A stretch of DNA of 64,000 bases from Mitsuokella multacida DSM 20544 (GTDB lineage: Bacteria > Bacillota > Negativicutes > Selenomonadales > Selenomonadaceae). Location: assembly GCF_000155955.1 (NCBI RefSeq), contig NZ_GG697141.2, forward strand, positions 1,396,086 to 1,460,085, given 5' to 3'. Made by a program: the position numbers and the translations under genes. The notes under the pieces are model-generated. The model was not told the DNA's origin, searched no databases, and saw nothing but the letters and a program-made list of their open reading frames with translations. Every line of letters begins with the position of its first letter. The first letter of the stretch is position 1. Positions 16,486 through 64,000 of this stretch are shown here, in pieces.

Positions 16486-16498
16486 CAACCTTCTCCTA

Positions 16499-16540
16499 CG
16501 AGGACAGGATCTTGATAGATTCCTGCCCTCGTTTTTTGTT
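16499..16540 (+). terminator. Terminator of the phosphoesterase gene
   Basis: Stem CGAGGACAGGATC with GATTCCTGCCCTCG followed by TTTTTTG. Confidence 0.85.
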
Positions 16541-16598
16541 GATAGAAAAGATTTGAGGTGGGAATCATTCCGGTTGTTTACTGGATTGTATCTTTGGT

Positions 16599-16772
16599 GC
16601 GGGGACCTGTTTCGCCTGGAGGCGTGGAGTGACTGCCCGCAGGGCTGCGCCCCGACGAGGAGTGGCTTTGCTGGCGATGACGGAACGCCGCGGCAGGCGG
16701 CGAAGCTGCATTGATGCTCATTACATCATGGGGTGCATTCAACGGAACGCCGAAGCCGAAATAGGTCCCCAC
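16599..16772. repeat. Dispersed repeat with terminal inverted repeats (MITE-like), copy 1
   Basis: The left end reads GCGGGGACCTGTTTCGCC (16599-16616). The right end, on the minus strand, reads GTGGGGACCTATTTCGGC (16772-16755), so 15 of 18 positions match as terminal inverted repeats. Read on the minus strand, the interior resembles the DNA at 63838-64000: shared blocks include TATTTCGGCTTCGGCG, ACCCCAT, CTTCGCCGCCTGCC, CGGCGTTC and CCCTGCGGGCA. It lies between a terminator of the plus-strand phosphoesterase and the terminator of the minus-strand aldehyde dehydrogenase, a region with no credible gene. No transposase is encoded. Confidence 0.65.
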
Positions 16773-16797
16773 GCCTGACACTCGATGTGCGCAAATA

Positions 16798-16837
16798 AAG
16801 AAGGCGCCTGCATGCAACTCCATGCAGGCGCCTTCTT
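16798..16837. terminator. Terminator of the aldehyde dehydrogenase gene
   Basis: A 17-bp perfect stem (AAGAAGGCGCCTGCATG and complement) with a 6-base loop just downstream of the minus-strand dehydrogenase. The T tail is short on both strands. Confidence 0.75.
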
Positions 16838-52081: not shown

Positions 52082-52157
52082 TGGAGCTGATTATAGGACT
52101 TGAACCTACGACCTGCTCATTACGAATGAGCTGCTCTACCAACTGAGCTAAATCAGC
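52082..52157 (-). tRNA. tRNA-Thr (anticodon CGT), second gene
   Basis: The minus strand folds as a 76-nt tRNA. Acceptor GCTGATT pairs with AATCAGC, the D arm is GCTC/GAGC and the anticodon stem GCTCA/TGAGC bears loop TTCGTAA (anticodon CGT, reading ACG). The T arm has TTCAAGT and CCA is encoded. It is identical to the copy at 52164 and six bases downstream of it in the transcript. Confidence 0.95.
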
Positions 52158-52163
52158 GAAATA

Positions 52164-52239
52164 TGGAGCTGATTATAGGACTTGAACCTACGACCTGCTC
52201 ATTACGAATGAGCTGCTCTACCAACTGAGCTAAATCAGC
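52164..52239 (-). tRNA. tRNA-Thr (anticodon CGT), first gene
   Basis: Identical in all 76 positions to the copy at 52082, with the same CGT anticodon and encoded CCA. It lies about 30 nt downstream of a consensus promoter. Confidence 0.95.
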
Positions 52240-63837: not shown

Positions 63838-64000
63838 AGGCGGGGAGGCATGTATTTCGGCTTCGGCGCTCAGCTGAATGGACCCCATGGCCATATCCTC
63901 ATGGAGGCTTCTTCGCCGCCTGCCACGGCGTTCTGACATCGCATGCTCTGCCTCGTTCTTCTTGGGGCCCATCCCTGCGGGCAATCGCTTCGCTTCTGCA
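63838..64000. repeat. Dispersed repeat, copy 2 (runs off the window end)
   Basis: From GGCGGGGAGG onward, this plus-strand DNA resembles the minus strand of 16772-16599: TATTTCGGCTTCGGCG (63853-63868) is shared exactly, followed by TGAATG.ACCCCATG, CTTCGCCGCCTGCC, CGGCGTTC, CATCGC and CCCTGCGGGCA. No credible gene lies here. The far end of the element is outside the window. Confidence 0.6.

Follow-up and report, generated by a model that had tools for sequence, protein, structure and literature searches.

A folded interspersed repeat family of Mitsuokella, possibly kept in place at gene ends after spreading as head-to-head pairs

It has long been an open question whether the small folded repeats scattered through bacterial genomes are parasitic or functional. 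BOX, RUP and SPRITE repeats are enriched between convergent genes together with IS elements and are read there as tolerated parasites (PMC3049150, available excerpts). REPs are shorter, 20–40 bp, and carry a GTAG or CGTC tag (PMC3733652, available excerpts), and the enterobacterial repeat units RU-1 (127 bp) and RU-2 (168 bp) are intergenic and MITE-like (PMC2759123, available excerpts). Here we analyse a repeat family first flagged in a window of 64,000 nt from the genome of Mitsuokella multacida DSM 20544 (G000; 2.58 Mb, 6 contigs) and compare its fold, its genomic sites, its copy arrangement and its divergence between species with those of the described systems.

Two intergenic stretches of the window had been proposed to be related in opposite orientation, and they are. 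Copy 1 occupies window positions 16597–16774 on the plus strand (C6:1412682–1412859; 178 nt, 165.9 bits with a covariance model), and copy 2 occupies positions 63842–64000 on the minus strand and is truncated by the window end, its outer 20 bases extending to the end of C6:1459927–1460105 (177.3 bits); blastn identity between the two is 74–75%. We performed the search of the complete genome that the original prediction had suggested and obtained 44 blastn matches for copy 1 (E up to 1) and 44 for copy 2, fragments counted in both. The covariance model recovers 38 full-length copies at 131–188 bits, 34 of which were used to train it and match by construction, and a further 4 matches that are weaker, partial or on the opposite strand. 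The 34-copy alignment (A2) leaves out two shortened tandem copies at C4:149k and the copies at C5:704532 and C6:747794. Module length is 178–182 nt in 36 of the 38 copies and 178–189 nt overall. The alternative outcome, two copies only and similarity confined to a conserved gene, did not arise; the full copies number 38 and are intergenic. It is close to certain that both flagged stretches are members of one folded interspersed repeat family.

The outermost element of the module is stem P1 (~20 bp), whose inner part is conserved; it is followed by a small hairpin, P2, and by an 8-bp stem, P3, which encloses a conserved core with hairpin P4 and a free loop on either side of it. In copy 1 (all features on the plus strand), the P1 5′ arm at 16597–16614 pairs with the 3′ arm at 16757–16774. 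These are the segments first described as left and right terminal inverted repeats; their complementarity stands, their reading as conserved transposon ends does not, since they vary between copies, and the supposed terminal repeats form the outer stem of a single fold specific to one strand. The conserved inner part of P1 has a 5′ side at 16615–16632, with near-invariant columns in alignments A1 and A2 and a similar sequence in a second genus (g21, containing G022 and others), and a 3′ side at 16738–16755 (family consensus ~GGAGCGACGAAGCC), to which g21 again has a similar block. P2 (GCCCGCAGGGC) lies at 16635–16645, the P3 arms at 16646–16653 and 16730–16737, the left variable loop at 16654–16673, the core with P4 at 16675–16704 and the right variable loop at 16705–16729. 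Conservation of the flanks stops ~15 nt upstream (5′ tail, 16583–16596 in copy 1, family consensus ~GTAACTNAGG) and ~20 nt downstream of the module (3′ tail with CGATGT, 16775–16790, family consensus ~CGATGTNAAC, weaker). Integron attC sites have inverted core boxes ending GTT...AAC, and the module tails do not look like such boxes.

Comparison of the copies supports this predicted structure and, with it, the earlier suggestion that the element could fold. In a MAFFT alignment of the 38 copies the outer arms diverge widely between copies yet remain complementary inside each one, and RNAalifold predicts 40 pairs, 30 of them with double changes that keep the pair. For 34 of the 38 copies, 97.2% of cells remain paired (80.8% in shuffles), 31 of 41 pairs are changed on both sides (16.6), 216 cells are double-changed (49.5) and the covariation score is 0.472 (0.146); none of 500 shuffles matched any of these four measures. 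Because the shuffles leave the relatedness of the copies in place, more weight falls on two other comparisons: (i) sliding the partners by 1–3 columns, after which 36–46% of cells pair in the same 34 copies, and (ii) genus g21, which keeps the fold: in a structure-fitted alignment of 18 sequences 96.2% of cells are paired and double changes affect 53 cells, compared with 14.8, and a MAFFT alignment made independently from 11 copies has kept double changes in 16 of 47 pairs. The blocks CGCCTGCARGA and CGGAGCGAYGAAGCCGAAA are nearly common to Mitsuokella and g21. Covariation backs P1 (19 of 20 pairs) and P3 (two-sided changes in 6 of 8 pairs). P2, with two-sided variation in one of three counted pairs, and P4, whose pairs are invariant or changed on one side, hardly vary and are therefore beyond the reach of covariation, so that P4 is drawn without its support.

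Two further pairings were considered and rejected. Pairing between the two variable loops is no stronger within a copy than between swapped copies (−10.19 versus −10.28 kcal/mol, p 0.99); own loop pairs outdo shuffled loops (−8.79 kcal/mol, p 0.002), which we attribute to composition or to motifs in common. A candidate pseudoknot of CGCCTGC with GCAGGCG in the core, noticed by eye, fails in three copies with CGCTTGC, which covary with the P1 3′ arm and mostly not with the core. Rfam 15 gave nothing above gathering score at the window copies, at 20 loci or at 18 further loci; at permissive E-values copy 1 gave weak sub-threshold matches only (best 25.3 bits, outside the module), and a permissive scan of one g21 copy gave no match.

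We determined how single copies evolve at their sites by comparison with a second Mitsuokella species (G001), in which the flanking genes of 15 of 16 fetched stretches resemble those around a G000 copy. Twenty-two candidate pairs were aligned, and 12, then 11, hand-chosen as clearly one-to-one, were used, leaving out tandem or flipped pairs, the probable exchange of C4:85568 and C5:636023, and a mini-copy; choosing by clear correspondence may favour well-kept copies and should not itself favour arms over loops. Across the 12 pairs, 58 of 982 paired sites differ, against 20 of 527 conserved unpaired and 234 of 631 variable unpaired sites; the low rate of the conserved class is in part built in, because that class was drawn up from this very alignment, which does not hold for the paired class. 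Double changes keep a pair in 16 cases and break one in 3, although 8 of these 16 are carried by the twelfth pair (L021/L123), which is doubtful and was therefore dropped from the 11-pair comparison. Single changes in the 12 pairs keep a pair in 16 cases and break one in 4. Of 20 single-sided stem changes between orthologues, 16 give G.U and 2 give A.C, an excess that rests on these 18 changes. In the 11 pairs, 32 of 659 sites differ in the 5′ part (4.9%), 23 of 523 in the 3′ part (4.4%) and 29 of 316 in the core (9.2%), against 68 of 280 (24%) in the left and 34 of 155 (22%) in the right loop, plus gaps, which are many in the right loop, and 128 of 599 (21%) and 93 of 575 (16%) in the flanks, again plus gaps and with the flanks partly coding. 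Slow arms, drifting loops and flanks and the preference for G.U over A.C together look like selection in place and not like the decay of a dead MITE. Function in place, short of proof, appears to be the better reading of this small set of orthologues.

The sites at which the copies lie agree with the initial placement of the element at gene ends. We grouped the G000 copies by hand into 27 sites and called genes by codon scoring, longest-frame calls being unreliable: 16 sites are convergent, 10 codirectional and 1 divergent. Of the 49 gene junctions of the window 7 are convergent, including the one that holds copy 1 (Fisher p 7e-5 against 16 of 27), and for single copies at convergent sites the module 3′ end is nearer to a gene end than the 5′ end in 13 of 14 cases. 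The 3′ end faces an opposite-strand gene in 26 of the 38 copies, so that transcription from the nearest gene would yield the strand that does not fold. Where neighbouring genes are codirectional the sense is mixed, with both neighbours on the module strand in 10 and both opposite in 7 of 38 copies in G000, and in 6 and 4 of 14 in G022; at five convergent sites a listed terminator on the module strand lies between the upstream gene and the module. It is thus plausible that the folding strand is transcribed at some sites, whereas for other sites this is doubtful. The terminators originally placed beside both copies are recovered in part: an automatic scan lists one at copy 2, and the putative hairpins around copy 1 (~16498–16538 and ~16798–16837) were seen by eye and are absent from the output of two automatic terminator scans.

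Genes for tRNA lie close to several modules (L063 3349–3915, L013 1327–1400, L005 2229–2301, L138 1795–1943), and in L063 a module has a tRNA gene on each side. In the window, positions 52085–52239 hold two adjacent tRNA genes on the minus strand with identical Rfam scores.

The reading that we favour, at just under an even chance, is that these ~180-nt repeats folding on one strand spread as non-autonomous head-to-head pairs, have become nearly immobile in Mitsuokella and are kept for a local usefulness. The family would originally have moved as such pairs, solo copies would be what is left after the loss of a partner, and the present Mitsuokella copies would move little if at all. The folded strand, probably as read-through RNA, would do something useful locally; candidate roles are protection of transcript 3′ ends or a block to read-through between convergent genes, and the module would most likely act as a folded spacer at the 3′ ends of genes. 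A possible formulation, which we put forward tentatively, is that the family is a new structured bacterial RNA class that spread as a mobile head-to-head pair, was then domesticated and now has its single copies selected at gene 3′ ends. The free loops provide each copy with a built-in neutral control, which makes constraint measurable site by site. Should further strains show the same signal, the family would offer dozens of natural replicates for the role of a folded gene-end element and a model of spread as a paired unit followed by persistence as solo copies; if domestication is true, a dispersed bacterial repeat would have turned from a parasite into a regulatory element of local effect, and the change could be seen in individual copies.

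The rival that survives best, although we regard it as unlikely, is a purely selfish MITE- or BOX-like repeat, whose fold would be needed by the mobilisation machinery, whose convergent sites would be tolerated and which would do nothing for the host. The arrangement of neighbouring copies (within 600 bp of each other; G001 and G017 counted in fetched stretches only) is relevant to both readings. Opposite-facing neighbours always stand minus-then-plus, with their 5′ ends facing, in 44 cases (G000 6, G001 2, G017 8, G179 28) against 0 plus-then-minus; the count excludes 15 of 79 model matches that are weak, opposite-strand, overlapping or cut, none of which makes a plus-then-minus pair by eye. 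Same-direction neighbours number 5 in G000, 3 in G001 and none in G017 or G179. The spacers of the G179 pairs are uniform, 114–121 nt in 25 of 28, and the eight G017 pairs lie within related units whose ends are AAATTGCAGTTT...AAACTGCAATTT or near variants of these. In G017 we count 19 forward and 20 reverse occurrences of the 12-mer AAATTGCAGTTT (0 for the sequence written backward), and ten units, 277–882 bp long, have both ends within the fetched loci, out of 39 end sites. The strict head-to-head order together with inverted-end units makes a mobile ancestor likely, and we infer a mobile ancestry of the family at this strength. Target-site duplications, which the original prediction had suggested looking for, were not seen consistently in the ten G017 units (by eye), nor at three compared Mitsuokella sites, none of which is a clean empty site. 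Of the MITE-like or palindromic element proposed at the outset, the dispersal, the one-strand fold and, in G017, the units with inverted ends are borne out, and mobility in Mitsuokella itself is not. In the G017 loci L133, L134 and L136–L140, the spacer between paired modules contains a near-palindrome around ACATCGATGT, half of which, CGATGT, recurs in the module 3′ tail and inner core.

A selfish repeat would also agree with the patchy distribution. Matches were found in at least 31 of the 189 genomes of a family sample (158 without a match under strict filters; counted by genus, 5 of 30), and in at least 33 of the 380 genomes of a class sample, all but two of these in the same family; the filters of the large searches were stricter and few candidates were scored per genome (14 in the family sample), so that the counts are lower bounds, and G015, found in another search, is missing from both. 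A distant blastn search with copy 1 gave no match in plasmids and phages, and a search of viral contigs with an exact pattern found nothing. The single-contig genome G179 has 67 matches; the early ones hinted at clustering near the origin, an idea dropped because the full list is distributed round the chromosome, with a higher density to one side of dnaA. The convergent bias, in turn, is that of pneumococcal repeats and IS elements (PMC3049150, available excerpts).

Remnants and partial deletions point the same way. At the copy 1 site, G001 retains only a remnant, the last ~40–45 nt of the module, so that at least some copies are dispensable. At C6:1144700 a full copy in G001 corresponds to the outer hairpin alone in G000 (among the alignments listed); at C5:701k G001 retains ~40 nt of one partner of a G000 pair; and at C5:704k a G000 pair is absent from G001, which has ~50 unalignable bases there and keeps a neighbouring partial-copy remnant. 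None of the three compared G000 sites without a full G001 partner is a clean empty site, as each holds remnants or unalignable DNA. Five G000 sites (C6:330724, C6:731354, C6:1036044, C5:688429 and C5:779463) and one G001 copy (L117) fall outside the comparison and could be recent insertions. Against the selfish reading, as to loss and REARRANGEMENT, the compared G000/G001 sites show only changes of tandem copy number, inversions, probable exchanges and losses. At C5:573120–573746 (L063 621–1247), for instance, three tandem modules stand in the direction of the genes and G001 has one. The genes there are, from their translations, presumably purN and purH; we take the names pfkA, hemC and aldehyde dehydrogenase from recognised translations in the same way. 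The copies at C4:85568 and C5:636023 look exchanged with L112 and L113 of G001, P3 pairs included (among the alignments listed), which suggests ectopic recombination or conversion. The compared orthologues also keep their arms and 3′ part 4–5 times better than loops and flanks, which is unexpected for selfish copies that no longer move.

It is less probable still, and in our estimate improbable, that the module is a site at the DNA level, with a single-stranded or cruciform structure bound by gyrase, by a REP-type HUH/Y1 enzyme or by a recombinase and with the pairs serving as inversion or binding sites. The long palindrome, the strict head-to-head pairs, the convergent placement and the mixed sense elsewhere would suit such a site, and so would the inversions between the two species. 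The latter concern the pfkA-site segment (~440 bp at the copy 2 site, with module remnants at its other edge), the pair at C6:664547/664838 and the gene at C5:634k. The copy 2 site has the look of recombination within a head-to-head pair with loss of one partner, and ordinary recombination of inverted copies with each other could account for all these inversions. Just past the window end, at C6:1460170–1460370 (L118 ~1815–2030), another long palindrome lies beside copy 2 in the inverted segment, with the form GGGGATG.CCGGGCAA ... TTGCCCGG.CATCCCC and an inner GAATCTATTTTTTCCC inverted repeat.

The asymmetry between the strands also speaks against a DNA-level site. The plus strand of copy 1 folds with z −4.2, a value reached by none of 200 dinucleotide shuffles, and the minus strand with z −2.0, matched by 3 of 200. 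The stems of A2 contain 41 G.U cells spread over 19 column pairs, 10 A.C cells spread over 10, and 29 other mismatches, in line with the G.U excess between orthologues. A duplex or a cruciform treats both strands alike; given the asymmetry, the folded strand is more likely to be RNA or single-stranded DNA. The preference for G.U over A.C marks one strand, and in head-to-head pairs the folding strand is present on each of the two chromosome strands. A ~180-nt fold with a conserved unpaired core, moreover, far exceeds the size of a REP.

A family of trans-acting RNAs, for example a sponge that binds a protein, in which total copy number and not the site matters, is quite improbable. The conserved, purine-rich unpaired core common to two genera and the constant length, together with the 38 full copies in G000 and the 67 matches in G179, speak for it. 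The module has, however, neither the own promoter nor the own terminator of a free-standing small RNA gene: the promoter score upstream is 3.90 against 4.04 for shuffled sequence, with 5.92 for the gene control, and no terminator is part of the module, an own-strand terminator within ~140 nt downstream being found in 5 of 38 copies. There are also only 3 matches in the congener G002 and 22 in G177. Around the G002 copies (L127, L128, L129) the flanks contain no reading frame more than 60% identical to the fetched G000 stretches around copies, and these copies may therefore occupy different sites.

Template switching is known for quasi-palindromes, and P1 is a long, near-perfect one, so that the compensatory pattern could be mutational, produced between the palindrome arms in replication and without selection; we consider this very improbable, as it leaves unexplained both the slow unpaired core relative to the variable loops and the preference for G.U over A.C. 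The decayed small gene family that similar peptides in one frame of copies 1 and 2 had suggested can practically be set aside, because lengths are spread over all three remainders modulo 3 (16/11/11), the best frame (−2) is open in 19 of 38 copies, and variation follows base pairing.

Among described systems, the Mitsuokella module most resembles the BOX and RUP repeats of Streptococcus pneumoniae, which are likewise small, interspersed, strongly folded, intergenic and gene-less, with an excess between convergent genes (PMC3049150, available excerpts). It differs in its host, in being one fixed module of ~180 nt and in its opposite-facing neighbours, which are always head-to-head; we set it beside BOX and RUP by description only, covariation and divergence of orthologous copies having been measured here for the Mitsuokella module alone. 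With REP, REPIN and BIME elements it shares a palindromic structure, neighbours that are often opposite and a position downstream of genes, between unidirectional or convergent ones (PMC3733652, available excerpts). Its length of 178–189 nt and its tags (GTAG in 3 and CGTC in 2 of 38 copies, within the 20 nt before the stem) both fail for a REP or REPIN, and that identity is rejected.

Like bacterial MITEs, the family is non-autonomous, short and folded, with G017 pairs inside inverted-end units; unlike them, it has outer arms that vary among the Mitsuokella copies, showed no target duplication and looks conserved in place in the compared orthologues. RU-1 and RU-2, compared by description only, are similar in size and intergenic position and belong to unrelated hosts (PMC2759123, available excerpts). 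A conserved fold, covarying stems and a conserved core are shared with the structured RNAs of Rfam, in which no family reached threshold for the copies tested. The repeat units RU-1 and RU-2 also carry the name ERIC. An earlier description of the family was not found in the Rfam scans or in a literature search of limited depth, made partly on excerpts, and the main text of PMC8040213 has no mention of Mitsuokella, Selenomona- or Negativicutes. In kind, the family belongs with the BOX/RUP-like repeats.
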